From Spirogloea muscicola (lineage: Eukaryota; Streptophyta; Zygnematophyceae; Spirogloeales; Spirogloeaceae), in contig WELB01000020.1 of the NCBI GenBank assembly GCA_009602725.1, positions 1,088,771 through 1,152,770 on the forward strand: a stretch of DNA of 64,000 nucleotides, in the 5' to 3' direction. The notes under the pieces are model-generated. The model ran no database searches. It was not told where the DNA came from and saw only the letters and a program-made list of their open reading frames with translations. Shown here one piece after another: positions 194 through 60,078 of this stretch (position 1 is the first letter of the stretch; every line of letters begins with the position of its first letter). Made by a program: the position numbers and the translations under genes.

Positions 194-1327
194 TGCTACC
201 GGGGTTTGCCTCTACCATTTGAATTCAAACGCCAACAAATCCTGTAACTACATACCTGGCAATGACTTTTGCAGCGTCCAAAAGTGCAGGTAGGTTGTCA
301 TTTGAGAATATGCTTATGTCTTTAGCTAGACTACATTGGCAGCCCGGATGCGTCTGCTGACTAGTGCAAGGTCCCTATTCATAACAATGTGAAATCTACA
401 CACTTCGCAGTCCTTGACCAGATGAAGTTTTGAGCATGCTTCTTGAGGATACACTGATGTACTGCTAGTTGTGCCTGTTAATCAGGAATGTCACGTGTGC
501 TCAGATTTCTCCGCTACCGAATGCACAGACTGTGCGCGCACCATGGACCCTGGCTACCCATTTGCTGCCTACAAGGGCTGTGCCACAGCTTCCTGCATGT
601 AGGCAACAACTTGCATGCTTTTTAGTTGAGCTTGGATCAAATAAATGAATTTATCTCAGCCATACTAGTGTATCTGCATAGGGGTTACCTCGTGCAAAGC
701 ATCTGCCCGGTATCTTGCCAAATTGCTTCTTCAGTGTCAAGGAACTTCTGTCAAGGAAGTACCTGGAAGCTTGACACTGTCTCAGCACAGCTTCTTGGAC
801 ATGGTACAATGTCGTCAATGTCACAGGAATGGCACATGTGTGCTCACGCTCTTGGCAAACGGCACCTCTTGCAACACCCCCGGATATTCCCCAGAGTGCT
901 CCACCAGCAGCTGCAGGTGAAGTTTTGGCCCATGTGTAGGACCCCCCTTGTTGTGGAGAAATGTGCATGACACCTAGCTGACCTCAATCTACAACAGTTG
1001 AGGGCTTTTGCAATGCATTTGCACAAACGAAGTGCGTACTGGCCATTAAATTTAGCTTCAGCACTGCTTGACATTGGCAAGTTGCTACGTTGCAGCAATG
1101 GGATGTGCCGGCTTGACAGCTTCATGCCGGACGAAACAACACATTGCGGAGGTCAACGTGCCCCTGAGTGCAACTTGCAATGCTATGGGGGCAAATGCCC
1201 TGAATTTGTGGATGAGCCTTGCTGGACACAAGATCCTAGGTTCCCCGGTTGTTCTGGTACCTGCCGAGGTGCCATTTGCGTTACTGAGCCTGGATGTTAC
1301 GGAGAAGGCTATAATTATGGCCCTTGA
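194..1327 (+). pseudogene. LRR-Cys family member E, 3' part (cysteine-rich exons), cut by window edge
   Basis: Four exons can be matched to gene A of the same window: 194-289, 486-598, 827-916 and 1096-1327. Each begins after an AG and ends before a GT, and encodes one cysteine module; 194-289 ends in NDFCSVQKCR, almost as in gene A. The last exon encodes a cysteine-rich domain of about 77 residues (16 Cys) ending at TGA 1325-1327. Exon 486-598 is 113 nt where gene A has 126 nt, so it breaks the reading frame; the second half still reads correctly in another frame (TDCAR, then YKGCATASC). The LRR part must lie to the left of the window. By analogy it would be a secreted LRR-cysteine protein. 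The frameshift makes it a probable pseudogene unless it is a sequencing error. Confidence 0.65.
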
Positions 1328-26654: not shown

Positions 26655-26908
26655 TTCTCAGTGATATGAAGTCTTCTCGAGTCAAAAAACCCTTAGCTGC
26701 TTCATTAGACAGTTCTCCATTTTTTGCACAAACAATGCACAAACAAACACGCTTTACGTGGACAACAAGCGTATGCCTTTCTAGAACAATTCGTAACACT
26801 TTTGTCTTTTCATGACTATCCTACGAATATTTCTGAAAACACAATTCTTATTACTCTCTCTCGAGATGTATTGCGATTGTTTCCGGAGATACAGAAATGC
26901 TTTACTCA
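26655..26908 (+). pseudogene. rpl5: Mitochondrial rpl5 fragment inserted in intron 4 of gene B
   Basis: From about 26742 the plus strand reads ALRGQQAYAFLEQFVTLLSF, HDYP, then ENTILITLSRDVLRLFPEIQ, the middle part of mitochondrial ribosomal protein L5. The same intron in gene A (17481-17358, -) goes from GCATGAGCTTCTC through 13 bases straight to GCGCTTTTGAGTGGCC; in gene B these two words stand at 26649 and 26909 with the mitochondrial piece between. So about 255 bp replaced about 13 bp. Confidence 0.85.
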
Positions 26909-29900: not shown

Positions 29901-30497
29901 CAGCTGCTGGCTTGGTGATCGTACTGTACAGGAATGGGTCATGTGCAGTCATGGGATATGATTTTGCTGGATATACCTGCCATACATACGACATCAACAT
30001 ATCCTCAGTGCGAGCTGCGTGGAGCATGCGAGTGAGGCACCGTCTGTTTCTAAGGATTTCTGGAGGGGCTCGCAAAGTATCAGTGAGATTGTAGAAAGAC
30101 GTCTTCTGAACATCCAAGCACCCGAGTTAGATGTGAGCAATTCTGCTGGGCACTAACACTGGTGAGACATCGTTGGCAGTGGCGTCGGACATTGCCTGTA
30201 TGACTATGGTCCGACCGCCAACACAACATGTGATATCCCTGGGAGTGACTTCTGTAGCGTCCAGAAGTGCATGTAGATTATCCGTGCATGATGCGCGAGG
30301 ATCATGCAATGGCACATGCCCTTTCATGACCCATGCATGCGGACTGTGACCACGGCATCACCTTATGCAGATAGTGTGATACATGTGCCAATGTTTAACC
30401 TGACATCCTTCATCAGCATGTGTGCTAGTCTTATTTGCCTCTGGTACTTCTTCACGCAGGAATGGTACCTGTGCTCAGCTCTCTCCACTTCTCTAGC

Positions 30498-30659
30498 CAC
30501 TCGGACTTGCATCTCCTGACTAGAGGTTACTGAGCGTTCCCTGGCTGATGTCTTAGTCCTAGTCGTTCGCACTCAGGCTCCCTCAGACCTTGTCCATTCC
30601 TTTGGGCTGGCCTTTCCCAGCCACCAGTCAATCTGGCCGCGCTTCTTATTTCTTCACTT
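30498..30659 (+). mobile_element. Very short 5'-truncated retrotransposon inside exon 15 of gene B
   Basis: Compared with gene A exon 15, sequence is interrupted after CTCTCTCCACTTC and resumes at CAGATGGCACC. The insert begins with the last 14 codons of an RLE-element ORF (SDLHLLTRGY stop), continues with its 3' UTR (CCTTGTCCATTCCTTTGGGC) and ends after the hairpin GGGCTGGCCTTTCCCAGCC. CACTTC stands on both sides, a likely 6-bp target-site duplication. Confidence 0.8.
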
Positions 30660-31468
30660 CCAGATGGCACCAACTGCGCGAAAGTTTTGACGCTATAAAC
30701 TACGTCCCAGGTCCCTTTGCTGAGTACAAGGGCTGTGCTACTGCTTCGCGCATGTAGGCCACATACCTGTGTGAGCCATATAAATATGGCTGTAGGATGA
30801 TACCCAGTCAGGACATCACAGGTATGCCCACTTATCGAATGGCAGCCTTTCAATCCTGCAAACACATTTCTAGCACTCACGAGGACCTGGGGTTTCCACT
30901 AGAGTTTGACTGTGTCATCCTTGTGCTAAACAATACAGTAATGACAAGTGCAAGCTGAACCTCCTCTCAGATGGTACTCGTTGCAACATAACTGGCTTGA
31001 AGACAACATCCTCTCCCGACTGTGGAAAGTGCAGGTTAAGCGAAGACATATATCTGAGCTGCTTTCATCGAATCTTGCCATCAGTCTCCTGCCACGCCTG
31101 TGTGAAGGGGCGAGCTCAGCATTGCAGAATAAATACTTAAGTAGCGCTCTCCGTGAGTTGACAGCATCTTCCATGGATAACTGCTAGGCTGAGCTGTAAA
31201 GCTCTTCAGTTCTCTTGGGATCATTTCTCTTGAGCTTCCTCCTCTCCAGCTTGACTTGACGTTATGCCGTCTTTGCAGTGAGGGCATCTGCCAGACTGTC
31301 AGCTACAAGCCAGTCGACACGCATTGCGGTGGTCCCTGCTCCTATGGTTGCTGCGCCACCTGTGATGAACAAGGAACCTGCATCTTTCACGATGGTGACA
31401 ACTGCCACATTGGTAATTTTTTGGGCACATATGAAGGTACTCGCCGCGTTATAGATATTTGTTGTTAG

Positions 31469-41899: not shown

Positions 41900-42847
41900 G
41901 AAGAAAGTGCTCGCCCATTGAGAATAGGGGCTGGAATAACCAGCCCGAAAAAGAATGAACAGAGTACGAGAAGGGGGCCAGGGGAAGCGCTAAGTAACAG
42001 AAACAAAGCTGCTACGAGACACTCAGTAACCCCTGCTAAGCAGCCGCAGATCAGAGATGCTGGGCTCCTGGAAGTGGGTCCCCTGGCCAGAGCCAGAGGC
42101 AGCAGCGAGGGCTCTGCCGGCACGAAGGTGCAGCGCCCGGGCCATGGACCTCTGCAGCGAGACGGCCAGGCGCATTCGATACACTTGCGCCAGCGACCCG
42201 GCTGCAGGGAAGTCAACCGGCTCCCCATGGAAGCGCCGGGCGATGGTGTGGCGGGCGAGCTGGGTGAGCAGCTCGAGCCACCGAGCGCCCAGCGCCCCAT
42301 GTGTGTCGATGGCCAACGGGAAGAACTCGTCTTCCCGCGGATGATCCGCGTACTTCAGCTCTTTGGCCCGAGCAGCGCAGGCGACCGCATACCCAGCCGT
42401 GGTGGCACATTTGGCTGGGTGTGAGCGGTCATAGGCATCAGTAGTCACCACGTCCAGGAGAAGACGTGGCCCGCCGGCCTGTCGGGTGGCCACCAGGTCT
42501 ACACGCCTGGCATGGAGACCGTCGGCCCTGTGCTGGATTGGCATGATTCCGGAGTGCTCTGCTGCCACGGAGAAACCAGCCTCCAACAGGATGCCATGCA
42601 TTACGTCGCGGAGGCGGTCGTGGGCCGCTGTCCGCTCTCCGCCGTGGGAACAGCGCAGAACATGAGCAGCCAGCTCTCCAGGCTCGGTCCCGCGCTCGCC
42701 ACACTCACATTGACGCACACCCTGGAGACATGGCGGCAGTAGGCCCAGGAGCCGGTGGACGGCACTTCGGAATACCTCGTCCGGGAGGGTGAGGGCGTCG
42801 TAGAGGGGGAGGGCCTGGAGCCACGCCGCAGCCCCCGGGGAAGAGCA
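41900..42847 (-). mobile_element. 5'-truncated family 1 retrotransposon, near-identical to the full-length copy
   Basis: Minus-strand ORF end (to TGA at about 42024) is residue for residue the same as the last 230 residues of the full-length ORF as far as compared. The 3' UTR differs at one base in the hairpin loop (GGGCTGGTTATTCC for GGGCTGGTTGTTCC). It ends with CACTTTCTTCT, after which both copies diverge, fixing the element's 3' terminus. The 5' break lies at CTCTTCCCCGGGGGC, matching 46407-46421. This is a recent truncated insertion in opposite orientation to its relative 500 bp away. Confidence 0.85.
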
Positions 42848-42994
42848 TGCAGAGTCTGCTAAAAGAGAGAAGCGCTAAAAGCTCTGAAAGCCTACAGGCA
42901 TATACCAAGATGACGACATGCCAAGCGGGGGAAACGAGATCCTGTAGCCGACAGGGGAAAAGTAGGAATCACGTGAAAGGTTCCAGGGCTTGAG

Positions 42995-43126: not shown

Positions 43127-43238
43127 CCGAGCGACTCGTAGCTGCTTTGTTTCTGTGTGTGCTTGTTTTTCTTAGCGCTTCGACCAGACCCCCTTCTCGT
43201 ACGTTGTTCGTTCTTCTTTGGGCTGGCTGCAGCGCACA
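43127..43238 (+). repeat. 3' UTR-like sequence forming the 5' flank of the full-length element
   Basis: CGACTCGTAGCTGCTTTGTT, TTAGCGCTTC, CCCCTTCTCGTACGTTGTTC and GGGCTGGCTG align with the family 1 3' UTR at 47229-47318. No ORF remnant precedes it. It is either the remains of an older copy or part of the element's own 5' UTR. Confidence 0.65.
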
Positions 43239-43328
43239 CCATCCATCTGGTCGCGGGCGCCGCCGCCGCGGCCGCCACCCCTCTTAAACCCCGGGCCGCC
43301 GCCGGCGCCGTCGCCGGCGGCGCCCGCC

Positions 43329-46300
43329 ATGGGGTCCGCGGCGGCGTGCAGCTCTCGGCGCCGCCCTCGGAGCCGGAGTCCCGAACTTCCCCCGGCCAAG
43401 TTCGCGTGGGCGCAGCGGTTTCTCACCCTCGCCGCCTTCCATGCCGCCACCACGCCACCTCCGCCGCAGCCCCCCCTTCTTCCGCCGTCGCCACCCTCGC
43501 CTGCGAAGCCCCCGCGCGCGCCGTGCCCCACCTGCCCGCGGGATTTCGCAACTCCCCATGGTGTCTCTGTGCATCGGCGACACTGCAAGGGGCATGCCAG
43601 CCCCACCGGCCCGCCGCCCGCAGCGGCCGTCGCGGCTTGCAGCCCCATCGTCCAGGCCCTGGCATCCACTCGGGCGGAGCATTCCACGGAGCATTCCACG
43701 GAGCATTCCACGGAGGCCACTACTCTATCGCCTCCCGCCCGAGAGAAGTGTCGGGCACCAACGTTATCGCCTCCACCCCTGAGAAGCGAGGGGACCCACG
43801 AGGTGACCACGCTCCTCCATCCTCAGGGTACCATGTCCCATGTGCTCGGCCCTGACGCCCCTGAGTGTGCTTCTCCGGCGACAGTGGTGCGGCAGCCGCT
43901 ACCGCCCGCCGAGCCGTCGTCACCACAGCCGCCGACGTCCCCACCGCCCCCACCTCCTCCGACGCCGCCTTCCCGATCATCCGCCATCCCGCCTCTCGAG
44001 CCGCCCAGCCTTCCACAGTCGGCGCCATCGACGCCCCCCCCATCTCCGCCGCCTCCACCCCCGCCGAGCGAGCCGGCTCCACCGCCGTCGCCCTCTCCTC
44101 CCTCGCCCGACCCGCCTCGGTGCCAGCTTTGCCAGAGGACCTTCACCACGCGGTCCGGCCGGTCCAACCACCAGCGAACTTGCGCGGGCAACATCAACCG
44201 TGCGGAGCAGGCGCGGAGCGCAGCGGCGGCGGGTGGTCGTCGGGGCAGACCAGGCAGGCCTCCCGCGCCGTCCCCGCCCACGCCTCACCACTGGCAGTGG
44301 CTGGCCGACCTTGACCTGGCCGCAGTTCACCGCCAGGCGGCCCTGCCGCTCCTACGCCATGTTCCACGCTGGGCACGCCCACACCTCCGCCGCGCGCTCC
44401 GCCCGGTGACACAGCGGATCGTCGTGGACCACAGAGACGAGGCGGCGTGGAAGCTGTTCATCCTCTTCCCCCGGCTGTTGCTCGGGCGGGTCTCTCTCGA
44501 CAGCCGCAAGCAGGGCCAGCAGCCCCTCTTGGAACGCGTCCAGTTGTTCGAGAGCGGGCACTGGGAGGAGCTCCTGGCGAGGCACGACGCAGCCGTGGCG
44601 GCATCCGAAGCCAACCGTGGTGGTCGAGGGGCAACACACGACCGGGCCGCCAGCGTCCGCAGGGCTCTTCGCTACGGCCACGCGGGCGAGCTCTCCCGGG
44701 CTGTGCAGGCCCTGGACGATGCGATGCTGGCGCCGACCAATGCGGCAACCCGGGCGGCTCTGGACTCCCTCCACCCCCCGTCCAGCTCCCCCCTGCCACC
44801 GTGGTTGGCCGCGTTCGCCCCGCCGGAGGAGGTGGTCTTGGACGCCGACGCCCTCATGAAGGCTCTCCAGACCAGCCGTCGCGCAGCCGCCGGCGGCCCC
44901 TCCCGCATGCTAACTGAGCACCTGCGGGAGATCTTCCTTGAGGGTGAGGCAACAGACTTCAACGCGCTGCTGCAGATCTGCCAGCATATGGCCCGCGACA
45001 ATGTGCCGGCCAGCATCCGCGGCGTACTGTGCACCAGCACGCTGCTCGCCCTCGACAAGCCGAGCGGGGGAGTCAGGCCCATTGCCATTGGGGAGGTCCT
45101 GTACCGCCTGGTGAGCCGCGTACTCTGGCAGCAGCATGCGGGGCCGGCGCAGGTGCACATGGCGCCACACCAGTACGGCGCGGGGCTGCGGAGTGGGGGC
45201 GAGGCCGTCGTCCATGGGGTTCGTGCGACCTTGGACCAGCACCCGGGGTGGCTGGTGCTGGCCGTTGACGTGAAGAATGCCTTCAACACTGTGGAGCGCG
45301 CCAGCATTGCGGAGGAGCTCCGGGCATCCTTCCCCTCCCTGGTACCCTTTTTCCGCTTGGGGTACGGTCAGCCCAGCGACCTCCTCTGGCGGACAGGGGG
45401 AGATCAAGTGGAGGTCCTGCAGTCCCAAGCGGGCACGCGGCAAGGAGACCCCCTCGCCGGCTTCTACTTTGCGCTCGCTCACCACCGGGCCCTGCAGGCA
45501 ACCGCCGCGGCACACCCAGGAGTCCTACTCCCCTCCTTCGCGGACGACACCACCATCGTCGGCCCTCCGGAAGACGTGGCGGCGGCCTTCATCACCCTTG
45601 AGCTGCAGCTGGCCACCCTCGGCCTGTCCACCCGGGCGTCAAAGTGCGCGGCCTGGTCTCCCAGCGGCCTCCCACCCAACCTGACGCTGCCCACCGGCTG
45701 CCAAACTCCAGCAGATGGCTTCACCCTGCTGGGGGTCCCCATCGGCGCGCCGTCCTTCGTGGAGGGGCAGCTGCGAGCCCGCCTGGCGGAGCACCTTCAG
45801 CCTGCGGCCCGGCTTCCCGAGCTGGACGACATGCAACTATCGCTGGCCATGTTGACCAGGGCCATTGGGCAGCGGCCCCAGTACCTGACGCGGGCCACTC
45901 CGCCGTCCCCTGGGGCGTTGGCAGCGTATGCAGATTTCGATGCAAGCATGGTGGCGAGCTTGGCGGCCCTGGTCCGCCACCAGGGCTTCCTCCAGTCGCC
46001 AGCAGCTATCCACCAGGCGGCGCTACCCCTCAGCCACGGTGGTCTCGGCCTGCGCCCGCTCGCTCGTTCTTGCCGGGCGGCATACCTCGGCAGCTGGGCG
46101 CAGACTGCCGCCTCCGTGGCCCAGCGCTTCTTGGTCCACGGCCGGCGGGCACTGGAGCAGGCGGTGGCGGAGGTCGACATGGGCCCGCTGCCGTTCCAGG
46201 TGTCGCTTCGCTCCGCCCACCAGGAGCTGCTCGCGGCGCACCCGGACCTGGCCGGCCAGGCGGTATCCTTTGCGCACCTCGCGCACACCGCCGACTTGCG

Positions 46301-47228
46301 CGTCCAAGCGCGCATCGCGGCAGTGGTCGACAAGGCCGCCTACACCACCGCCGTGCTCCAGCTCCCCGAGGCCGACTTGCGCGGGCGCGCGAGACTCCAC
46401 TCGGCCTCTTCCCCGGGGGCTGCGGCGTGGCTCCAGGCCCTCCCCCTCTACGACGCCCTCACCCTCCCGGACGAGGTATTCCGAAGTGCCGTCCACCGGC
46501 TCCTGGGCCTACTGCCGCCATGTCTCCAGGGTGTGCGTCAATGTGAGTGTGGCGAGCGCGGGACCGAGCCTGGAGAGCTGGCTGCTCATGTTCTGCGCTG
46601 TTCCCACGGCGGAGAGCGGACAGCGGCCCACGACCGCCTCCGCGACGTAATGCATGGCATCCTGTTGGAGGCTGGTTTCTCCGTGGCAGCAGAGCACTCC
46701 GGAATCATGCCAATCCAGCACAGGGCCGACGGTCTCCATGCCAGGCGTGTAGACCTGGTGGCCACCCGACAGGCCGGCGGGCCACGTCTTCTCCTGGACG
46801 TGGTGACTACTGATGCCTATGACCGCTCACACCCAGCCAAATGTGCCACCACGGCTGGGTATGCGGTCGCCTGCGCTGCTCGGGCCAAAGAGCTGAAGTA
46901 CGCGGATCATCCGCGGGAAGACGAGTTCTTCCCGTTGGCCATCGACACACATGGGGCGCTGGGCGCTCGGTGGCTCGAGCTGCTCACCCAGCTCGCCCGC
47001 CACACCATCGCCCGGCGCTTCCATGGGGAGCCGGTTGACTTCCCTGCAGCCGGGTCGCTGGCGCAAGTGTATCGAATGCGCCTGGCCGTCTCGCTGCAGA
47101 GGTCCATGGCCCGGGCGCTGCACCTTCGTGCCGGCAGAGCCCTCGCTGCTGCCTCTGGCTCTGGCCAGGGGACCCACTTCCAGGAGCCCAGCATCTCTGA
47201 TCTGCGGCTGCTTAGCAGGGGTTACTGA
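43329..47228 (+). CDS. RLE-type non-LTR retrotransposon polyprotein (reverse transcriptase plus endonuclease), full length
   Basis: A single ORF of 1299 aa from the first ATG in good context (CCGCCATGG); the open frame extends upstream without ATG. The N-terminus has two C-x2-C-x12-H-x3-C fingers, at residues 66-86 and 265-285, separated by a Pro/Ser-rich region and a 12-nt tandem (EHST three times, about 43677). Reverse transcriptase follows: AVDVKNAFNT with Asp647, QGDPL, and FADD with Asp739 and Asp740. The C-terminus has a C-x-C-x12-H-x3-C knuckle (Cys1072, Cys1074, His1087, Cys1091) and a restriction-like endonuclease core (RRVDLV...LLLDVVTTDAY), the order known from R2-like elements. 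There is no N-terminal AP endonuclease. No stop or frameshift was seen, so it may be active. GC content is far above its surroundings. Confidence 0.9.
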   Translation: MGSAAACSSRRRPRSRSPELPPAKFAWAQRFLTLAAFHAATTPPPPQPPLLPPSPPSPAKPPRAPCPTCPRDFATPHGVSVHRRHCKGHASPTGPPPAAAVAACSPIVQALASTRAEHSTEHSTEHSTEATTLSPPAREKCRAPTLSPPPLRSEGTHEVTTLLHPQGTMSHVLGPDAPECASPATVVRQPLPPAEPSSPQPPTSPPPPPPPTPPSRSSAIPPLEPPSLPQSAPSTPPPSPPPPPPPSEPAPPPSPSPPSPDPPRCQLCQRTFTTRSGRSNHQRTCAGNINRAEQARSAAAAGGRRGRPGRPPAPSPPTPHHWQWLADLDLAAVHRQAALPLLRHVPRWARPHLRRALRPVTQRIVVDHRDEAAWKLFILFPRLLLGRVSLDSRKQGQQPLLERVQLFESGHWEELLARHDAAVAASEANRGGRGATHDRAASVRRALRYGHAGELSRAVQALDDAMLAPTNAATRAALDSLHPPSSSPLPPWLAAFAPPEEVVLDADALMKALQTSRRAAAGGPSRMLTEHLREIFLEGEATDFNALLQICQHMARDNVPASIRGVLCTSTLLALDKPSGGVRPIAIGEVLYRLVSRVLWQQHAGPAQVHMAPHQYGAGLRSGGEAVVHGVRATLDQHPGWLVLAVDVKNAFNTVERASIAEELRASFPSLVPFFRLGYGQPSDLLWRTGGDQVEVLQSQAGTRQGDPLAGFYFALAHHRALQATAAAHPGVLLPSFADDTTIVGPPEDVAAAFITLELQLATLGLSTRASKCAAWSPSGLPPNLTLPTGCQTPADGFTLLGVPIGAPSFVEGQLRARLAEHLQPAARLPELDDMQLSLAMLTRAIGQRPQYLTRATPPSPGALAAYADFDASMVASLAALVRHQGFLQSPAAIHQAALPLSHGGLGLRPLARSCRAAYLGSWAQTAASVAQRFLVHGRRALEQAVAEVDMGPLPFQVSLRSAHQELLAAHPDLAGQAVSFAHLAHTADLRVQARIAAVVDKAAYTTAVLQLPEADLRGRARLHSASSPGAAAWLQALPLYDALTLPDEVFRSAVHRLLGLLPPCLQGVRQCECGERGTEPGELAAHVLRCSHGGERTAAHDRLRDVMHGILLEAGFSVAAEHSGIMPIQHRADGLHARRVDLVATRQAGGPRLLLDVVTTDAYDRSHPAKCATTAGYAVACAARAKELKYADHPREDEFFPLAIDTHGALGARWLELLTQLARHTIARRFHGEPVDFPAAGSLAQVYRMRLAVSLQRSMARALHLRAGRALAAASGSGQGTHFQEPSISDLRLLSRGY

Positions 47229-47352: not shown

Positions 47353-48118
47353 CCTGGACCCTTGCCCCTGCAGTAACCGTTGCTCATTTTACCGTTGCGG
47401 CCCCATCCCAATGCCTCCCGCTTTTCCTTGCGCCGCCGGCAGCCCGGGCTTGGCGATCCACAGCATTCGTTACAGAAAGAGTGGACCATCAATGTCCAGA
47501 GCCCAAAAGAGGAATGGAAGAGGCGTCGGAAAAAGGACTACACTACAAAAGGACTACACAAGACGCCCACTTCTGGAACGGAAACAGTGTTGTTGTCATT
47601 CACTTTTAGGCTGGCTTTTCCAGCCCCTATTCTCAATGGGCGAGCACTTTTCTATTCCAGCCCCTATCCTCAATGGGCGAGGCACTTCCTTCTTTTGTCC
47701 CACTACTTCTGCCTTGCAGGTGCAGCCGCTGGACGATCACGCCCAGGTCACCGACTGGCTAGCTGCCGAAACTTGGTGGCGGTGCGTCAGGCCGGCACGT
47801 CACAAGTCAGCTGACGCTCCCGCAAACCTGCCGCGTCATGCGACGTGCCGGCCGACATCGTCGACACATCTCTTGATTCCGCAAAGCCCGCCGCGTTGGG
47901 CGCCGTGCCGGCCGCGGCGGCGGCGCCCCCCCCCCCGGGGCAGCTCCGAGGCGCGCAGCGAACAATCTGCGGATCGTAAGACCTGGGGGACGGGGCGGTG
48001 GTCAGCGCATTCGCAGAGCTTTGGACGCGGCGCAGCTCATCCGCAGGACCGTAGATGTGGCCAGCACCCCCCTCCCCACCGAAAGTCGGAGCGCCGCCCG
48101 GCCCCGCGGCATCCCCTC
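47353..48118. other. No gene; further family 1 tails
   Basis: Two tails in tandem at 47605-47655 and 47655-47690 (each with CCAGCCCCTAT, CTCAATGGGCGAG). No exon recognised in the GC-rich rest. Confidence 0.5.
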
Positions 48119-48412
48119 ACGTGCCTTTGGGTCTGGTGTCCTGCTACCGTATGCGACTGTCTATGTCCCTGCAGCGCTCCCAAGCGCTTGCTCTGCACCG
48201 CCGCGCTGGTCGCGCCCTTGCAGCAGCCTCTGGCTTGCGCAGCGGGGTTGCTCCTCCTCCCCTCAGCTCATCTGACTTGCTACTGCTGACACGGGGGTAT
48301 TGAGGGCGCCCTGCCTGCCTAGCCTACGGCTCCGTCATGAACACCTGTACGCATCTGGCTGGCATTTCACAGCCGATTCTTTCATATCAGCAGCCGCTTT
48401 CTTCTCACCGCC
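48119..48412 (+). mobile_element. 5'-truncated family 3 retrotransposon, copy b
   Basis: Reads VPLGLVSCYRMRLSMSLQRS to SSDLLLLTRGY stop, then the same 3' UTR as 19282-19381 up to CAGCAGCCGCTTTCT. Ends 33 bp upstream of the start codon of gene C, so it supplies the immediate 5' flank of that gene. Confidence 0.8.
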
Positions 48413-48444
48413 GCCGCCAGCCGCCAGTACCGCCGCCGCCGCCG

Positions 48445-51400
48445 ATGGCGCCGTGGCTTCTGGTGATCGCCGCCGCCGCCGCCGCCGCCCCGCCTGAGGG
48501 CCTCGGAACGGGCGCCGTTGCCGAGGTACGCGGCCGCCGGCCCGCTCGGCAGCGCCCGCAAAGTCCTGCTTTGCCAAGTCCTCGTGCAGCACGACCCACA
48601 GAGCCAGGACCCAGAAAGACACGAGTGCCTGACGCGGCGGCTGCGGCGGCGAGCGGCGGCCAGGAGCCCTGGGCTGCCGGGGTGGTGGCGCGATTCTCCG
48701 CCGGGCGCCGGCTGCTCTCAACGCACCCGGACTGTGAGCCAGAGTCGCTCCGGCGCCCGAGCCGCCGCCGTCGCTCGCCGTCGCGGCGTGCTGAGTGCTT
48801 ACGACTTCGCCAGCCCTGACCACTGCAAGGTGCTTCCTGACGGCTGTGGCGGCGCGGTGTTGACTCGGCCCAGACGGGGCGCTGGTGTCATTCAAGGCCG
48901 GCGTGAAAAACCCACCGCTGCTGTCCAGCTGGACGGGGCCCAACCCCTGCGCCGGCTGCAACGCCACCGGCGGCAACTGCGCCTGGTTCGGCATCGAGTG
49001 CGACAACAGCTCCGAGTCAGCTCCCTGTGAGTGGCCATCTGACTCGGTGGCCCTCAGACAGCTTGCGACGTTGGTTTGGGGCAGACACCAATCAAGTGCT
49101 AGGTTGACTTTGGCCCTCTCCCTGCACACTCACCAGGGCCCGTGGTTCTCAGCCATTGTGTTTAACTGGCTTCATTGACTTCGTGACTGATAATTGGTAC
49201 ATTAGCTTGTAGCCTTTAACTTTTTTGTCTGGGACAAGTTCTCAGCAGAATGCGCCTCCAGCTTTCTCAGGCACTGCTGAGTGACTGAAGCGAATGTGGC
49301 TGCTGACTTTCCTGGAAGCATGCCGCCTGAACCTAAGGAAAGGACTGGTGGTGCATGGCTCTGTTGTTTCTCAGAGTGGTGGTGAACGCCAACCTTAATG
49401 GGTCACTCACCTCGCCCATTGGCAACCTCACCAGCCTGACGCGCCTGTAGGACACTCTTGCCTCTGCTACTCACTGGTGAATTTTCTAGGTTGTGCAATT
49501 GAGACGACTTGCTTACAAACTACACTGTACTGTTTATGTGCTATGTTGGTCGGTTATAGGTATTTGTATGGGAATCGCCTGACAGGACCGATTCCTCCCA
49601 CCATCGGCAACCTGGCCAAGCTCGACCTCCTGTACGTCAGCTCTCACCAAAGCCCTCTCGACTGCAACATTCGCTGGCTTCAGCATTAGGCCTGTGACGA
49701 CAATCGAATTGCCAAAACAAGTCAGGTCATAGCGCCCTCACTTGCCAAGAATTGGTTTGTGCAGCAATTTGGACCACAACTTCCTGACAGGGAGCGTTCC
49801 AAGTACCATTGGCAAGCTTTCGCAACTAGAACTGCTGTGAGTCTGCCTGAGCTTCATGACAAATACTCATGAAAAAAGCTCTTCTACATTTAGAAGTGCG
49901 AATCTGCAGGAAGCACAATGTTGGGCTCTGTTAATGCTCATCACCCTTTTGGCTAGATCACCGAACTTGCTCAGCTGAACTTGGTCAGGTGGACTTGCTA
50001 TATTAAAAAATGTGTCAAATCAATATAGCTGGATGGGGCTGCTCAAATCAGCTTGTAAGTTGGCTGTTCCTTCCAGCCATCTCTGCTGCAACAATCTGAC
50101 GGGTCCCATACCGACAACCATCACGAATCTCACAAAACTCGTCATCTTGTTAGTGGTCACCCCCTACCAACTTCTCTTGCGGCGGTGACTTGTCACATAC
50201 CATGAAGATTTGCCATGAATCTACAGTCGGCTCTGAAGACTCCTTGATACTGGATTCTGCACACTGCGTATGCTATGTATATGTTGCAAATTCAGGGGCA
50301 GGCAGGCGCGCAAAGTTGACCAGATCTGTGGTCGACATTGTTCAGCATCATGGACTACAATGGCTTCACCGGCACCATACCTCCTGACTTCCAGAGCATG
50401 CCGTACTTACAGAAGATGTAAGGGAGTCCGGCGAGCTAGCTGCTGGTGGATTTGTGCCTTTGACTGTGCAAACCTTCTGAAGCGAGCTCTTCATGCGCCA
50501 TGGGTACAACCACTTCGTTTCCTGTCAGGAACATACAAAGTGCCGGGCTCCATAAGTGTATGCTGCATTCCCATCACTGGCTGACATGCAGTCTTTCACA
50601 TCTCTTATATTGCAGTCAGTTGGCGCACAACAAGCTGAATGGCGGGATCCCGGCCATACCTCTTAACTACCTCACTCACTTGTAATTGCTGATCACCACT
50701 TGCATATGCTCATCGAGAGCCATCAGTGTGCATCATTGTGTGTATGCCAAAGTGCAAAAGTCAAGGAGGTTTCTGCAGCCAACTTTGGGACAATATGCCA
50801 GCAGACTGACCACGTCAACCATGCCACTATGCACAGAGACCTGTCATATAACAACCTCACGGGGCTCCTCCCATACAATCTCGGGATATTTGGAAGATCC
50901 TTGCAAGTTATGTAAGTGGTTGCTATCTCTTAAGTAGTGCATGTGGTCAATCTGACGGCTTGTGCTGCTCATGAGATGGCTCCCTTTTCTAGAGACGAAT
51001 CAGTGACACTGTTGGCTAATTTGTCTTGTGAGTGAAAGCCACAAGCAAATGATCAAAAGACAATGTCAGCAAGCAGTTGTTACGGGGCTGAGAGGATACA
51101 GGCCCCGTGAACGTGGTCCACAGCCTTAGTACATACCTGATGCTACTGGTGGTATGTGCTGCAAATGTGTGGCAGAAATTTGGCCTCGAACAGGTTCTAT
51201 GGGACCATATCCACTTACTTAGGATCCTCACCATCACTTCGGAAGTTGTAAGTCAAGCTGTGCCTCTGGAGCTTACTGCTGTCCACAGTCAACGACATCA
51301 GAGGCATTTCCTGAAAAGCTCCATGATGAAATTGTTATTTCCCGCATCAATAGATATTCTGAGAAGCTTGTACAGCAGAGTTGTAGTTCTGCTGACAGTT

Positions 51401-54400
51401 GAATCTTGTGGCAGCGATGTTTCCAACAACACTTTCCAGGGAGGGTTTCCAGAATCGTTACTTCCACCTTTCAACACGGCATTGAAGTGGATAGACGTCA
51501 CCGGCAACTACATGACGGGCCCAGCCCCGAATGTCTCCATCCCAGGGCTCACGGTCCGCACCTCCACCAACTGCTTCAAGCTCCCTGCTCGCTTCCAAAG
51601 GCCAGCCTCAGTGTGCGGAGCCCAGCTGTCACCGCGTGAGTCTCTCTCTCTCTCTCTGTCCCCCCCCCCGCCCCCCTCTCCCCGCTGCTTTCCCTCTCTA
51701 TCTCCCTCATGTTAGCCCCTGGTCCTTTCTCTTGAGCATTCCTGATTATGACTCTTTCTTGCATCACGCCGCTCCTAACAGCCTCAAGTCATCCCAGGCC
51801 TTCACTCCTGCTTCCTGCTAGCCCTTCCACTTCACCCCACCCTCACCACCTTTCTTCTGATCTTGACGAATCTGGATATTTGTTGGCAAGTGGATTAGAG
51901 GTTCTCAGATTCTAGAAGTTGTGGCATGTCAGTGGAACAGTGCTCCACAAACACGCATGGCCTTATTGACATGAAGAGCACCGCACGTAGATTAGAAGCA
52001 TTGAATCTTTCAGTATTTGGTCTGCGTGACCTCCAGAAGGTAGCTTGTAAACGACTTGCTGTGGCATGTTGTACACAGCCTGCTTATCGAGCTCGTCGAG
52101 CGATATTATTTCGAGCGAGTCCATTGTGACTTGTTACAACCTTGGAAAAGACTATGACACCAGCTGCAACAATGCCATGTGCAGGTCAGCATATATACAT
52201 GTTAAGCCAAAACCTTGGACCCTGATTCACTGATAGAGAGATTCAACTCCCGGCAATACTGTACTCGACTGCTGTGTAGCATGCTGACCAATGCAACGTT
52301 GAGTAATCTAGGCAACGTACATACCAAGTTATGATTAAAAGCCGCATAGAAAAAGCCTGTGGAATGTACAAAGCTGTCAGGTGCTGAAGCCAAAATTGAG
52401 AGCTGAGGTTGATAAGAAGCCACTGACGACGGTTCCACATGGCTGTCCAGCTCCACAACCTCGCGTTGTGAGCTTGACCGCAGGGCTGATGGTTTTCGCT
52501 GTAACGCTGCAAGTGGGGGCTACACCAACCAATGCGCCAACCTCACCTGCCAGTCAGTCCTCTCCAGCCCACAACCTGAATCTGTTACCCACATTCCATG
52601 AGCTGCGCAGACCTTGGTCGAGTCGAATGTTGGTCACTTTGACAAACGCCTTTGTATGGTCCATCCACATAGCACTTGTGAGCATCAGCCACTGCTGTTG
52701 AGCATAGAGTGGCCTTTGCAAAAAGTTTCTGGCAGAAGATCTCCTGATTTTGCCCCACAAAGCTACGCACAGACCCTGGCAGCTTGCAGGGCTTCCACCT
52801 TCCTCACACTTTTTCTGCATGTCTGTGCAGAGCTGGCATATGCACTCTTCACAATGCTCTCCCAAGGGCCAACCACACGTGCACGGACCCTCCCGAGCGT
52901 AACAGCCAGTGGGATCCGCTGTGCTTTGATGCTCGCTGCTCAAGGTAGTCAGCCACCTGTCACAAGCGATCACAATATGCTCTTATTCTGCTCTCATTCT
53001 CAGAAAAGCAGGGTCTGTGAGGCTAAAACATGAAAGGTCATTGATGAGTATTCAGCAGGAATCAGGGGGTGATGTGTTGGTCAAGAAGAGCAATGAGCAT
53101 TCGACCAAGATCATCCATCACAATGTGTCGCTGACAAGCCCATTCCCTTGTTTTTCTGCTTGTCTTGCTAGTGACGGGAGATGCCTCTTCAAGACGTTCC
53201 AAAACTCCTCCAAGGACTGCTCTGAGAGCAATAAGGGCCTGAGGTGCTCCAGCTATTTCTGCAAGTAAGCCAATCTCTTAAATTCGAAGCCACCAAACAC
53301 TAGATTGTAAACTCTGAATCTTGGTTATACAGCTCCTCGCAGTCTGTAAGTAAATGTTATGAGTTGCCATCACAAACATATTTGTCTGTATCGTGGGCAG
53401 GGCACAAGCGAGCAGAAAAAAGCAGGCTCTATGGCTCTCTGTCTGTCTGAGACTTGAGAAAGTTCTGCAGCTGCTTCTGTTGAGCCTTGATTTGTTAGGT
53501 TTCTTCAGCTGTCATTCATGGGAATCCCGTGCATTGTTTAATGGTTTGCCTATGAAGCGCGTGAACACCCAAACTCCTCCAATCATAGTCCTAAGTCTAC
53601 CTGCCTACGACATGCTCAGCTTTCGCTGATGGTAGCTCCTTGTTTCTCCATTGACCAGCGGGAACGGCGTATGCAGTGTTCCAAATAATTACACTGATGG
53701 CACACCATGTTACTCACATTCAGCTGACTACCAGTGTGCAAATACGTCGTGCACGTGAGTATATGGTTGGTCCTCTTTTGACAAACTAGACTTATTCTCT
53801 AAGGTAGACTAAGAGCAGCTTTGGAATCCAAATAGTTGCTCATGCGGCGTGGAAACAGCCAGACTCAAGGCATGAATGCTGTCGCATTATCATCTGCTCA
53901 GATGTTCTTTTTCAGCCTGCGAGCTGCAATTGTGCTGGTGTGTGCATATTGTCAGGCATTCTTGAATCTGTCTAGTAAGGCGGCAGCACAGGTGCTGGAT
54001 AAGTGCATCATAGTCCTTCACGTGATGTCACAGGAAGGGCGTCTGCGTTGGGGCGTACAATGGCAAGTCGAGCTGCAACCTTGCCGCTCCAAATCCTTGC
54101 TACATCTACACGTGCAACTCAACGTCGGTTCCTCTCTCCTATCCCTTTGCCCTTCAATGTGCCAATGGCTTGAGGTGCTCGCGGTCATGACCCTTTGCGC
54201 TACTGCCTGCTGTGATCTTGACGGCTTTCCTGTGGTTGCCTCAAGACAGCACACAAACGTGCTCCAACAAGAAAGTGGCCCCAAATACGACGGCATGCGC
54301 AAATGGTGACAAATGCGATTTAATCTATCGCTGCAAGTAAGTCCGCAAGTGGGCTGTTCAAAATCGCCCTCTTTGACAGCCTGCTCAAAAAGCAGCAGCA

Positions 54401-55644
54401 GCAAATTATACCAGTGATAAGTAAGATAGATCCTGAAGTTCTAAGAAAGCAAGTGATACGCCTACCCACTTAGCCTCAGTACCCAAAAGTGCCTCCATGG
54501 TCGCATCCTTGCTCCTTGTTGTGGCCCGCGATGAGCGCAAGATTAGGAGATATATCTAGGCACTTGATCAAAGGTACCACATAACTGCGTGAATATTTGT
54601 CAGACAGCCATCACCGAAGACCGTCTCTGATTTAAGCAAAGCATGTTGCTGTTGCATGCAGCGGCCATGGCTCCTGTGACTATAGCAAATACTACACTGC
54701 GGCCAATGGCACCATGTGTGGCTCTACGTCGGGAATGGGATGCGCTAACATGGCATGCAGGTGGGCATTAAGCACTGACGCTCACTCGCCATTCCACAAT
54801 TTGAATAAGCCACCAGTCTTTCAGGACTCTGATCGTGTCCTCCTCCTTTGTCAGAGAGGCCCATTGCCTTTGCATCCATGCATAAACCTTCAGAGCTACT
54901 ACCAGTGAGATGCTCTCATGCTTCCCACGTACTTGCTGTAATTGACAGTAAACCTTCTGTTGCACTTGCTTTTCAGCGCCGGTCAATGTCAGATCTCGAA
55001 TGTATATGCGAATGGCACCATCTGCGACATTCATAATCCCAATGCAATAGATGACCGCTGCCAGGTCAGCTCGTGCAGGTAAGTGTTGCTGGTCTTGCCA
55101 TGGTCGGTAGATTCTCATTGATGGTGTTCGATGCCTCTCGGTCCGATTGTCATCATCAGGTAGTCATAGTTACCTCTTCAAAGAAGCATGCGGTCAGCTT
55201 GTCTTGGCAGCCTGGCTTCAAATGGTTGTTTGATTTGGTCATGTCACAGATGTTGCTCCTTGTCAGGTCTGCCGTACACCACATGACATTGTCATTAGTT
55301 ACACACATCTGGTCTTGGCATCTCACATGTTCACTACTTTCTCCTTCATCTGCAGTAATGGTCAGTGCTCGAATGTCGTGAGCAACAAGCCAGCTGGCAC
55401 TGTGTGCCTTCCAACACCTACCGGATACGAGGACAATGGCTATTTCTACATCGATGGAACCTGCGAAAGTGACGAATGCTGCGCCCATTGTGATGGTGCG
55501 GGTAGTTGTGATGAGAACATCAGAGACGGGTCGACATGCAACACATGCTCGACTGGCAGTGGATGCGGAGAAGGGCCAAGCGGCTGCGAGCCCGATGGCT
55601 GTTCCTGTCACAGGACTCGTTGCACCTTCAACTATTTAATGTGA
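48445..55644 (+). CDS. LRR-Cys family member C, 20 exons, about 788 aa
   Basis: Exons: 48445-48733, 48874-49026, 49375-49446, 49560-49631, 49765-49836, 50077-50148, 50346-50417, 50616-50681, 50837-50911, 51415-51635, 52079-52184, 52484-52552, 52831-52944, 53172-53264, 53659-53754, 54034-54183, 54250-54336, 54662-54760, 54977-55078, 55356-55644. The N-terminus MAPWLLVIAAAAAAAPP resembles a signal peptide. Exon 2 is the LRR N-cap (ALVSFKAGVKNPPLLSSWTG). Five LRR exons are exactly 72 nt (LYLYGNRLTGPIPPTIGNL). Then come the C-cap, nine cysteine exons such as NYTDGTPCYSHSADYQCANT, and a Cys-rich end closing at TGA. Exon 2 is 4 nt shorter than in gene B, which breaks the frame at the junction; using the AG two bases further on at 49375-49376 restores it over all remaining exons. 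Probably secreted; function unknown. Confidence 0.75.
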
Positions 55645-56585
55645 CAGAAATTAGCACAGGTTTTGGACACCTCTGAGGGCTTATGTAGTACCACGTACAT
55701 GAGATAAGAGCAAGAGTAGGCTGAACAACCACAGAGCCACCTCGAAGATGGTGGTGCAGGTTCACATTGCTAAGACAATGGGCACAACTGTGAAACGTGT
55801 GCTGAAGTTCACAGGCGCCTCTCTCTCTTTAGGCAATGCATCTGCGTCGTGAGGTCCATGGGGCAAGCAAACAATTACTGCATTTGCGGTGAATTTATTC
55901 GTTGGATTTTAACTGGACTGGATTATGGGATTGGAATTGGAATGGAGTTCAATCAGTATGGAGCCGAATCTCTCTGAGTCCAAAAAGTCAAGCAGTAGGC
56001 AGGCCGCAATCGCCATAATTATCCCTCTATGTTGCTAAGAATCTGGGTGGTCAAATAAGGGTATAATCTCACATGAGCTTTTACTGCAATCGAGGAATGT
56101 CATTCAAGAGGAGCAGCGGCATGGGATACGTGCTATCATGTGCAGGAGGCAGAACGCATCTACGAGCATGCAGTCCTGTAGCGCGCTGAATTGGTGCACA
56201 TACATCAATATCTTTGCCTCTGAGTTCATGCCACGACCGCTTGAGTTGGTCGAGATATAGGTTTGACTTGCAGTGTAGCCTCACTGTGTCATACTAGGTT
56301 GCGGTTGAGGTGACAAGTGCTGCTTCAGTAGAAGGAGCTCCTTGATGATCAGCATTCTGAAGGCTGAGCTAGAGCCACATCGTCGGCTCTTCATGTCGTT
56401 GTTGACAACAATCAGTGGTCATGTATGTGGGCAAGTATTTGTTCTGCTGTACCTGCCCGAAATGGCGCTGTTGCGGTGGCCAGCGCTTTGAAGGTAGGGA
56501 GCGGAGCTGGCACTGTGCAGGATGTGAGTGTGGTGATCCGGTGCACCAGCGACTAGGGCGGGGAGCCATGACTCAGCCCAGTAGG
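54745..56585 (+). repeat. Tandem segmental duplication, unit 1
   Basis: From the end of exon 18 of gene C through the last two exons and about 0.9 kb of 3' flank; matches 58305-60078. Ends where a retroelement tail begins at 56590. Confidence 0.8.
55645..56584. other. 3' flank of gene C, no gene
   Basis: Duplicated at 59189-60078 with many small changes. Holds words such as AGGAGCAGCGGCATGG and CCCGCCCTAGTCGCTGG on the reverse strand but no conserved frame. Confidence 0.5.
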
Positions 56586-57096
56586 CCGTAGGAAGAAGGT
56601 GCTCGCCCATTGAGAAGAGGGGCTGCAAAGCCAACCCAAAAAGAATGGACAATGTTCAACGCCAAAGAAAGAGGTGCTGAAAAAGGACTACACTACAAAG
56701 TGCAAGATGGTGCAGAGGGAGATGCAGATGGCTGCTCAGTATCCACGTGTGAGCAACAGCAGATCAGAGTAACTCGGAGCAGGAGAAGCGGCACTTTGCC
56801 GAGACCCGGAAGCAGCAGCCATAGCACGGCCAGCCCGCGCGTGGACCGCATGAGCCAAAGAGCGCTGCAGCGAGACCGCCAGCCTCATCCGAAAGACCTG
56901 CGAGAGGGAGCCGGCAGCATTGAAGCCTGGCGAACCCTGCCGCCGCTCGATGGCCTCCCGGGCAAGCCGCTGGAGGAGATCCAACCAGCCACTGCCAAAT
57001 GCCCCGTGTACGTCAATGGCCAGTGCCGCGAAGGCATCGCCTGGAGGGTGGTCAGAGTACTTGCGCTCCTTACTCCGAGTAGGAGCGCTCCCTTGC
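56585..57096 (-). mobile_element. 5'-truncated family 1-like retrotransposon
   Basis: The minus strand reads RKYSDHPPGDAFAALAIDVH, WLDLLQRLAREAIERR, FNAAGSLSQVFRMRLAVSLQ and SDLLLLTRGY stop, then a 3' UTR and the tail at 56650-56590. Its 5' end lies close to that of the next element, which runs the other way. Confidence 0.75.
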
Positions 57097-57186
57097 GAAG
57101 AGAAGCAGCTTCCAAAGCGGGCGAAAAATGGTGAAATAACGAAACTAATGGAAAGAACAAAGAATGAAGTAGCTCTTCCAACGAAG

Positions 57187-57835
57187 GCGGGTTTGATGCG
57201 CGACGCCACGTACCCTGCGGTCGTGGAAATGAACAACATCATGCCTATCACCACGGATGCCCAGGGACGTCATCATCGCCGCACACTTGACATTGTGGGC
57301 GTGCAATCTGGTGGAGGACCACGGCCTTGGTCGATGTTGTTGCTACGGAGGCATATAAAGGTCCAGCATCGACGCACATCGCTGGCCACGCAGTCGGCTG
57401 TGCAGAACAAAGAAAGCTGCAGCTCTTCTCCAATACCCCCAATGCGATCAGCTCCTGCCAGCTGCAGTTGACATCTTTGGCTGTTTGGGTCCTCGTTTCC
57501 ACACTCTCCTTCAGAATGTTGCCAATCTAGGCTATGCACGACGTGCAGATGTGTTTCCGGCTGGGATGGGCCTGCCAGCTGCATATCTGTCGTTCTTGCG
57601 ACGACGCGTTTCGGCCTGTCTGCAGCTTGCTCAGGCTAATGCTTTGCACGAGAAAGTTGGGCGAGCTCTAGTTGGTGGTAGAAGGGCTTCATATCGGCCA
57701 TCTGGTATTCAGGCATCGATTAGCGACTTTCATGTATTGACCCGTGGTAACTGAGCAGGTCAATCTGCTGTAGGTGATGTACGACTCTAGATGTGCTTGC
57801 CTTTGTACTTGGCCATTGGGCCTTTCTTTGTTTCA
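57187..57835 (+). mobile_element. 5'-truncated family 2 retrotransposon, copy c
   Basis: Starts at GLMRDATYPAVVEMNNIMPI, continues TTDAQGRHHRRTLDIVG and, after a frameshift, RADVFPAGMGLPAAYLS to SDFHVLTRGN stop. 3' UTR with CTTGCCTTTGTACTTGGCCA at about 57797. Confidence 0.75.
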
Positions 57836-58304
57836 AAATAACGTAAATCCTCTTACAATGCGAGGCAACGGTTGTGAGAGGCCAGCCCAAAGCTTTAATT
57901 CTGGGCCGCAGCACCCTGCTGCCCATGGAGTTTTACGGTTAGTGCTAGGAATGAATGGAGAGGTAGTTGAACGTGCAGAACCCCGTTCTGGATTACTTCA
58001 TCGAGGTACAGAAAAATTGATCGAATGCAAGAGTTACTCACTAGCTTTGCCTTCTTTTGATCGTTAAGACTACGTTTCTATGGTGGCACAAGATCGTGTC
58101 CAAATTTGGAGTGTCTCAGGCACATTGGGCTTATTCTGAGTACGAGACAACCATGCTGCTCCGGTGCGCCCTAGCTATGGCGGCCACTTCAGTGCAGGCG
58201 GAGCGTGTGCTAGCTGGTCCTTTCTGCCGCAATCTGCCGATATTCAGTCTGCACCTCAACAGCTGAGTATGTATGGAGAAACGCAACAAGATCGTTGTAG
58301 TAAT
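57836..58304. other. Solo tail and X 5' fragment, no gene
   Basis: Minus tail at 57862-57895 (GTGAGAGGCCAGCCCAAAG). At 58150-58260 a piece with GCGCCCTAGCTATGGCGGCC and GGCGGAGCGTGTGCTAG, like the start of repeat X; a second copy is at 60395-60520. Confidence 0.45.
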
Positions 58305-60078
58305 ATGACATGCAGGTGGGCACTAAGGACTGACGCTCACTTGCCATTCGACAATCTGAATAGGCCACCAATCTTTCCGAACTCTGAACGTGTCATACTT
58401 CTCTGTCAGAAGAGGCCCCTTGCCTTCGCGTCCGCAGATGCCTTCAGAGCTACCAGTGAGATGCTCTCATGCTTCCTGCATACTTGCTGTATGACAGTAA
58501 ACCTTCTGGTGCATTCGCTATTCAGTGCTGGTGAATGTCAGATCTCCAGGGTAGCTCCAAGTGGCACCATCTGCGACATTTATAATACCAATGGAATAGA
58601 TGAGCGCTGCCAGGTCAGCTCGTGCAGGTAAAGTTTGCTGGTCTACCATGGTCCGTACTTTCTCATTGCTGATGTGCGATGCCTCTCGGTCCGCTTCTCA
58701 TCATCAGGGAGTCATGGTTACCTCTACGAAGAAGCATGCGGTCAGCCTGGCTTGGCAGCATGGGTTGGAATGGTTGTTTGATATGGTCATGTCACAGACA
58801 TGTTGCTCCTTGTCAGGTCTGCATTATACCACGTGACATCGTCATTAGTATCAGTCTTTTGGTCTTGGAATCTCACATGTTTACTACCTTCTCCTTCATT
58901 TGCAGTAATGAAGAATGCTCGAATGTTGTGAGCAACAAGCCAGCTGGCACGGTGTGCCTTCCACCTCCTCAAAGGATTGGGAGTTATTACTACGTCGATG
59001 GAACCTGCAAAAGTGACGAATGCTGCTCCCATTGTGACGGGAGGGGTAGCCGCGATGAGAACATCAGAGACGGATTCAGTTGCAACACATGCTCGACCGG
59101 CAGTGAATGTGGAGAAGGGCCAAGTGGCTGCGAGCCCGGTGGCTGTGTTTGTCACAGGACTCGTTGCGCCTTTACCTATGGAACATGACAGAGTATGGCA
59201 CAGGTTTTGAACAACTCGAAGGGCTGAATTAGCACCACTTACATGAGATAGAGCAAGAGAAGGCTGAGTAAATACAGAGCCAGCTCGAAGGTGATGGTGC
59301 AGGTTCGTAATGCTCAGGCAATGGGCACAACTGAAACTCTATATCGAAGTCCATCGAAGTCCACAGGCAGCTCTCTCTCTTTTTGTAATGCAGCTGCTGC
59401 GTCCTGAGGTGCATGAGCACCGTGGGGCAAGCAAACCCTTACGGCAATAGATTTGATCAGCCAACATCGTCTGATGTCTTAAAAGGGAAGCAGTAGGCAG
59501 GCCACATTGCAGTGATTTTGCTCTCATACTCTTAAGAAACTGGTGCCATAGAAGGTATAATATGATACGAGGTTGTACGAGTACTGCAGAATGGTCTTTC
59601 ATTCAAGAGGAGCAGCGGCATGGAAGACGTGCTGTTATGTGCAGGAGGAGAACGCTTCGTCTCTACAAACATGCACCTTTGTAGCGTGCTGCGTGGGTGC
59701 GCATCCATCAATGTCTGTTGCCGCTGCATTCATGCCATGATCGATTGAGTCGGTCGAGATATGGCTTTGACTTGCAATGTAGAATCGTGTCAGACTAGTT
59801 TGCGGCTGAGGCAAGAAGCATTGCTTCAAACGAAGGAGCTTCGTGACGATTAGCACATCGAAGGCTGAGCCGAGCCGCATCTTTGGCTCTTAGTGTCGAC
59901 AACAATCATTGGTCATATATGTGGGCAAGTACTTGTTTTGCTGTAGCTGCACAAAATGGCAGTGGCCAGCGCTTTGTAGGTAGAGAGCGAAGCTGACAAT
60001 GTGCAGGATGTGAGTGTGGTGATACGGTGCACCAGCAACTAGGGTGGGGAGCCATGACTCAACCCAGTAGGCCGCAGG
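58305..60078 (+). repeat. Tandem segmental duplication, unit 2
   Basis: Copy of 54745-56585, about 3.56 kb downstream, including the last 10 or so bases of exon 18, the last two exons of gene C and their 3' flank. Confidence 0.8.
58526..59188 (+). pseudogene. Duplicated last two exons of gene C
   Basis: Exons 58526-58627 (102 nt, as in gene C) and 58906-59188 (ending at TGA) keep open frames and splice sites. They encode GTICDIYNTNGIDERCQVSS, then NVVSNKPAGTVCLPPP and DGTCKSDECC. One cysteine of the terminal domain is Arg (GSRDEN for GSCDEN). No upstream exons exist for this copy, so it can only be used as an alternative 3' end of gene C or is a relic. Confidence 0.65.

Follow-up and report, generated by a model that had tools for sequence, protein, structure and literature searches.

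Plant wall sensing and immunity rest largely on secreted and membrane leucine-rich repeat (LRR) proteins. In LRR-extensins (LRX) a tail associated with the wall follows the secreted LRR domain, and polygalacturonase-inhibiting proteins are secreted plant LRR proteins with about ten repeats. In brown algal ROCO genes each LRR is coded by one 72-bp phase-2 exon, with gonadotropin receptors as the animal parallel, and these exons are shuffled, alternatively spliced and under positive selection at concave sites (PMC11378527, in the part of the text available). Tetrahymena has an expanded family with tandem 90-bp phase-2 LRR exons (PMC6564038, available portion), and the secretome of Penium reportedly includes an LRX1-like protein (PMC6027541, available portion). 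Here we describe gene C, which lies in a 64,000-nucleotide stretch of Spirogloea muscicola contig WELB01000020.1 (hereafter the window; it is the final 64 kb of this contig, our C20), and the family to which it belongs. The family is real and conserved; its LRR exon design is already known and its tail is uncatalogued. An earlier note on this DNA knew of no family in green algae described with such an architecture. One LRR per 72-bp phase-2 exon is known from brown algae (PMC11378527, same portion). No paper listed, judged by titles and abstract openings, names a family of LRRs with four-cysteine modules in algae.

Gene C runs from ATG to stop over exactly the bounds that the earlier note had given (48445-55644, plus strand) and comprises 22 exons with GT-AG borders (Table 1). 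The model was built from exon borders and paralogs, and its splicing is predicted. The predicted protein of 757 residues carries 18 N-glycosylation sequons and 58 cysteines. It opens with a putative signal peptide and an LRR cap, which lead into about ten LRRs of the plant type; nine exons with four cysteines each and a terminal exon with 14 come after these. Its most hydrophobic stretch is the N-terminus. In the predicted exons no second stretch is as hydrophobic, there is no kinase match, and the stop lies in the terminal exon. An apparent loss of frame from exon 1 to exon 2 was rejected, as exon 1b (E1b) resolves it; in paralogs, RRLLA..P D-like text followed by a GTGAG donor can be seen by eye upstream of the LRR cap, which supports this exon. 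A short form of C2 was also rejected, and its start was moved to give the longer exon.

The LRR exons E3 to E10 measure 70, 72, 72, 72, 72, 66, 75 and 72 nt, and E4-E7 and E10, at 72 nt, have phase-2 borders. The statement that every LRR occupies its own phase-2 exon of about 72 nt does not extend to the last two LRRs, which share E11. All introns from E3 on are in phase 2, with the sole exception of the one between E11 and C1, which is in phase 1; C1 is therefore an asymmetric bridge exon. Candidates of the C1 kind were found in L055, L039, L042, L041 and L051 (our handles for loci elsewhere in the genome), and none in five of the 11 stretches examined. Each of C1-C9 has exactly four cysteines in 87-114 nt, and the cysteine count is even in every cysteine-bearing exon of gene C. 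The nine cysteine exons counted earlier are correct once the terminal exon C10 is set aside. The proposed module signature fared less well: N-G-x-C near the start occurs in its strict form only in C5 and C10, while G-x-C is present there in seven of the ten. The supposed C-K or C-R ends are an artefact of reading across donor sites (the residues after the last cysteine of spliced C1-C9 are S, Q, S, N, T, N, N, S and S).

The phase of these exons is unlikely to be a product of chance. Between scored splice sites in 48001-56000, the strict module pattern found seven exons, all of them in phase 2; 200 dinucleotide shuffles gave means of 0.005, 0 and 0.01 for phases 2, 0 and 1, with a largest value of 1. 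Gene C itself had served to train the splice-site weights. No module-pattern exon appeared on either strand of nine control loci, which together cover 29 kb. On the sense strand of 22 other family stretches there were 51 such exons in phase 2, a single phase-0 case in L053 and no phase-1 case; three of the 22 had none at all. Of two antisense matches, one corresponds to the family exon at position 194 of the window. These results agree with close to one cysteine module per phase-compatible exon. Phase was tested only in this control; with phase 2 imposed, open exons fitted most of the paralog stretches. Exactly four cysteines were present in 97 of 106 modelled cysteine exons, for which candidates needed at least three.

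A search of the genome with the tail of gene C returned 58 exon matches, corresponding to 18 loci with a terminal exon (hand count), and two more loci (on C453 and C357) where the terminal exon was unmatched. The tail of gene B, a second family member in the window, returned 74 matches: 11 loci with a terminal exon and five with at least two modules. Together the two subfamily tails give about 36 loci on 19 contigs by hand count, a lower bound that omits the distant gene D and may count haplotypes. Copies are clustered on C20 (about 995-1148 kb) and C99. In alignment A1, which holds 12 of the 18 terminal exons (L040, L045, L049, L050, L052 and L054 were left out), 12 cysteine columns are invariant and two more nearly so, and in paralogs the open frame stops within about 30 residues past the last conserved cysteine.

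Paralogs also share the order of their exons. Models were chained without an imposed module order and exons were labelled by their best gene C match. Neighbouring cysteine exons then followed in rising order in 73 of 83 pairs, and neighbouring LRR exons in 72 of 84; in neither case did any of 20000 permutations reach that value. (The cysteine-exon test left out gene C, L040, L052 and four window stretches, and L050 had no modelled cysteine exon.) Part of the exceptions are C4-C5-C4-C5 labels in L044, L045 and L056, although in L056 the C4 labels are weak and the margins small (0.24 versus 0.23 and 0.29 versus 0.28). We read this run as a duplicated exon pair, the clearest candidate for a module gain. 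Module numbers, which the earlier note had suggested counting across the genome, are 5+1 in gene B, 9+1 in gene C and about 10+1 in L044 and L045, the last figure being nine modelled modules plus one C6-like match. Arrays are largely colinear among paralogs. Module number thus varies mainly from subfamily to subfamily and less within one. Of the idea that exons could be added or lost without breaking the frame, the phase-compatible exons and differing module numbers are supported, but frequent gain and loss as a source of variation is not.

Different surfaces of the protein are conserved to different degrees. In seven modules (C1, C6 and C10 left out; only exons matching gene C well), cysteine columns show 0.95-1.0 identity and other columns 0.36-0.51. 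In the LRR exons E4-E10 (10-13 genes per exon, from 13 of 23 stretches; E3, E11 and gene D left out), identity is 0.81 for the three residues per repeat that we take to lie on the concave side, 0.66 for scaffold and 0.39 for other exposed residues. On the presumed binding face, E6 codes a vicinal cysteine pair, HLCCNN, present in all 13 genes compared; gene D, outside those 13, has HLAHN in its exon closest to E6.

Ratios of non-synonymous to synonymous substitution (dN/dS, by NG86) were obtained for 14 pairs; L048-L050 paired no exons. LRR and tail values, respectively, were 0.14/0.38 (L039-L055), 0.67/0.73 (L041-L042), 0.37/0.60 (L044-L045), 0.35/0.82 (L056-L045) and 0.36/0.48 (L039-L042), and, at dS above 1, 0.18/0.27 (gene C-L055), 0.16/0.13 (gene C-L042) and 0.26/0.22 (gene C-L045). 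The LRR part alone gave 0.37 (L050-L051) and 0.46 (gene B-gene A), and the tail alone 0.42 (L043-L045), 0.74 (L047-L049), 0.29 (gene C-L049) and 0.22 (L046-L054). The tail exceeds the LRR part in all five pairs with dS below 1 and in six of eight overall, and no pair is above 1.

Database searches separate the two halves. The profile search proposed in the earlier note matched the LRR part of gene C to Pfam LRR_1 (6.1e-25) and LRR_8 (3.2e-17), and to LRR families only. Its repeats are of the LxLxxNxLxGxIP type, as in plant-type extracellular LRR proteins. There is no LRRNT_2 match in gene C at E<=1, though the cap motif is visible and recurs in paralogs; LRRNT_2 (PF08263) has four matches elsewhere on C20, outside the window. 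The nearest solved LRR sequences in PDB are the plant receptor ectodomains GSO1, MIK2 and FLS2, and LRX2 is among the 60 listed. For the tail, Pfam at E<=10 gave no family for three tails and 12 terminal exons, including the disintegrin and ADAM cysteine-rich profiles that had been suggested, with the reservation that HMMER filters may hide weak cysteine-rich matches. NCBIfam at E<=1 gave no family for two tails, and PDB sequences at E<=10 gave no match to a single sequence or to profiles (tail, alignments A1 and A2). The terminal exon produced only pattern matches in viral and bacterial or archaeal contigs, with no relative confirmed. This genome was the only eukaryotic collection covered by the search for further family members.

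We propose that these genes code for LRR proteins of the wall or matrix that are built on the logic of LRX, in which an LRR domain with a common partner is joined to a faster-evolving disulfide tail; we hold this explanation to be about evenly poised between right and wrong. The conserved concave face of the LRR horseshoe would bind one common partner, which might be a co-receptor, a peptide or one of the wall polymers. Because cysteine counts are even in every cysteine-bearing exon of gene C, each cysteine exon may code a disulfide-closed unit, and in the cell wall or extracellular matrix the tail could serve as a stiff, faster-evolving stalk or offer a second surface for binding. Copies would have arisen by gene duplication, and module number would have been fixed mainly at the subfamily split, with one visible later change where a unit of two exons was duplicated. 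More tentatively, the four-cysteine module may be an undescribed disulfide domain family, and streptophyte algae may have in these genes a new class of LRR proteins of the wall or matrix. Their LRR face would be invariant, and diversity in recognition or mechanics would have shifted to an ordered, exon-coded disulfide tail. If this alga is near the land-plant line, a conserved LRR face with an uncatalogued, exon-per-module disulfide tail would represent another way to build such proteins. The family also tests whether shuffling follows from an array of one module per exon; in this case the answer is mostly no.

Several points count against this proposal. Its wall location and ligand are ones that we infer. 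Mean pLDDT was 38 in a fold prediction of the terminal exon (four rows), which is unusable. E4 reverses the concave pattern (0.45 versus 0.52), and the contrast was weaker (0.72/0.69/0.58 for concave, scaffold and other exposed residues) in an initial count that used different position sets, took in E3 and had three E4 exons wrongly assigned. In gene C-L042 and gene C-L045 (dS above 1.5) the tail is not faster than the LRR part. Among the close pairs (dS 0.09-0.18), some could be haplotypes. The terminal exons of L040 and L054 are not open in one frame and, like gene A, these copies look broken. Last, at the E2/E3 junction gene C is one base off its paralogs and stays in frame only if the second AG of CAGAG is used; an error in the assembly or decay of the gene may lie behind this.

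The strongest rival is a variable locus whose secreted products act as immune-type binding proteins or decoys and whose phase-2 exons are gained, lost and shuffled to diversify them, like the brown algal ROCO LRRs. Its clustered copies on C20 and C99, symmetric exons, one two-exon duplication and tail dN/dS of up to 0.82 would fit such a locus. However, module and LRR exon order is kept, the concave residues are conserved where an immune repertoire would vary, and no pair exceeds a dN/dS of 1, yet whole-domain averages can hide single diversifying sites. We consider this explanation unlikely. The earlier note had likewise suggested a locus of variable secreted binding proteins; a multigene family, predicted to be secreted and clustered on C20, agrees with that view, but the LRR face is the most conserved surface. 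It is improbable that the proteins act in gamete or cell recognition or adhesion, making species-specific contacts through the disulfide tail: predicted secretion, the N-glycosylation sequons and the higher tail dN/dS of recent pairs would suit this role, but the many dispersed copies would not. Very improbable is the idea that they are receptor-kinase ectodomains stripped of their kinase and mostly relics, since, although the genome has plant-type LRR receptor-like kinases (RLKs), several copies are broken and candidate 72-nt phase-2 LRR exons also occur in two RLK loci, dN/dS is below 1 in all 14 pairs, the tail modules are conserved with a stop soon after them, and the RLK part read in L057 keeps its LRRs in one long open frame.

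Table 1. Exons of gene C and other family features, in window positions
Feature	Position	Strand	Remarks
Gene C exon 1, signal peptide	48445-48525	+	ATG then MAPWLLVIAAAAAAAPPEGLGTGAVAE, GT donor; signal peptide called by eye
Gene C E1b, linker	48664-48733	+	ends RRLLSTHPD; phase-1 donor
Gene C E2, LRRNT-like cap	48874-49026	+	4 Cys; WTGPNPCAGC..CAWFGIEC; cap seen in paralogs too
Gene C LRR exons E3-E6	49377-49446, 49560-49631, 49765-49836, 50077-50148	+
Gene C LRR exons E7-E10	50346-50417, 50616-50681, 50837-50911, 51176-51247	+
Gene C E11, final two LRRs and C-terminal cap	51415-51635	+	221 nt; cap with 2 Cys; phase-1 donor
Gene C C1, asymmetric bridge exon	52079-52184	+	phase 1 in, phase 2 out; 4 Cys
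Gene C cysteine exons C2-C5	52451-52552, 52831-52944, 53172-53264, 53659-53754	+	symmetric phase 2; 4 Cys each
Gene C cysteine exons C6-C9	54034-54123, 54250-54336, 54662-54760, 54977-55078	+	symmetric phase 2; 4 Cys each
Gene C C10, terminal cysteine exon	55356-55644	+	289 nt; 14 Cys; includes stop
C9- and C10-like exons, truncated gene C paralog	58524-59188	+	73.5% and 75.8% identity
Gene B	13023-18205	-	LRR cap, LRR exons, five 4-Cys exons, terminal exon
Gene B 4-Cys exons	14551-14646, 14262-14363, 14027-14122, 13719-13844, 13432-13533	-
Gene B terminal exon	from ~13211 to stop at 13023	-
Gene A, decayed-looking gene B relative	25916-31468	+	terminal exon from ~31280
Gene D, more distant member	2398-6845	-	outside matches of gene C and gene B tail searches
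Gene D LRR exons	6774-6845, 6585-6656, 6144-6215, 5806-5877, 5364-5435	-
Gene D module-like exons	4268-4351, 3489-3590	-	low scores
Gene D terminal exon	2398-2649	-
Lone gene-B-type module exon	194-289	+	left window end

Gene A has the five module exons claimed for it plus a terminal exon. An insert of about 160 nt (30492-30650) divides its fourth module exon into two parts, 30460-30491 and 30651-30753, both of which match gene B. These parts overlap by 10 bases, which may be a target-site duplication. Downstream of gene C, 55701-59800 contains no convincing exon besides the C9- and C10-like pair. A short internal run of TTTAGGG telomere-type repeats lies by exon E11 of gene B (15287-15314; three matches versus 0.03 in shuffles). 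About 1.2 kb upstream of gene C, a 1350-residue open frame (43176-47228, plus strand) matches reverse transcriptase (RVT_1, 8.4e-16); a 99% identical 3' fragment of this retroelement lies at 42026-42850 (minus strand), with many fragments elsewhere. We rejected the idea that the retroelement is specially tied to the family: by protein search, fragments occur in 10 of 18 longer family stretches (L039-L056) and also in three of eight shorter controls (L001-L008).

The genome also contains plant-type LRR receptor kinases. LRRNT_2, LRR and kinase matches lie close together at about 194-575 kb of G000:C2, suggesting a plant-type receptor kinase cluster, and L057 reads as LRRs, a membrane span and a kinase. 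Such kinases agree with a streptophyte, for which PsaA on contig C392 gives modest evidence: it aligns best with 6l35/7ksq (Physcomitrella photosystem I; 1573 bits), ahead of 7d0j (Chlamydomonas; 1538) and 6igz (Bryopsis; 1492), but pea-type chains such as 5l8r (1529) rank under 7d0j. The earlier reference to green algae may thus have to be restricted to a streptophyte alga. The candidate 72-nt phase-2 LRR exons in receptor-kinase loci (L004, 2596-2667; L005, 2597-2668) differ from the family in repeat register. LRRNT_2 matches also occur inside very long open frames of 3425-4706 residues (G000:C16:1002455, C137:91588, C21:179113 and C427:10084).

By the features tested, the family is not a member of LRX, LRR-RLK or ROCO. 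Like ROCO genes, gene C has 72-nt phase-2 LRR exons; unlike them, it belongs to a family in which LRR order is kept and concave residues are conserved, and Pfam found no ROC-COR domains in gene C (LRR families only) or in the tail. The Tetrahymena genes resemble the family in tandem LRR exons, phase-2 introns and expansion, but their exons are exactly 90 bp and scrambled, the genes number in the thousands, and the available portion of the source mentions no cysteine tail (PMC6564038). With the plant LRR receptor kinases GSO1, MIK2, FLS2 and ERL1 the family has an LRR cap and LTGxIP-type repeats in common, whereas it carries a cysteine-module tail in place of a membrane span and kinase. Polygalacturonase-inhibiting proteins are not known to carry a cysteine-module array. 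In LRX proteins, the position taken here by the four-cysteine modules is held by a proline-rich extensin tail.

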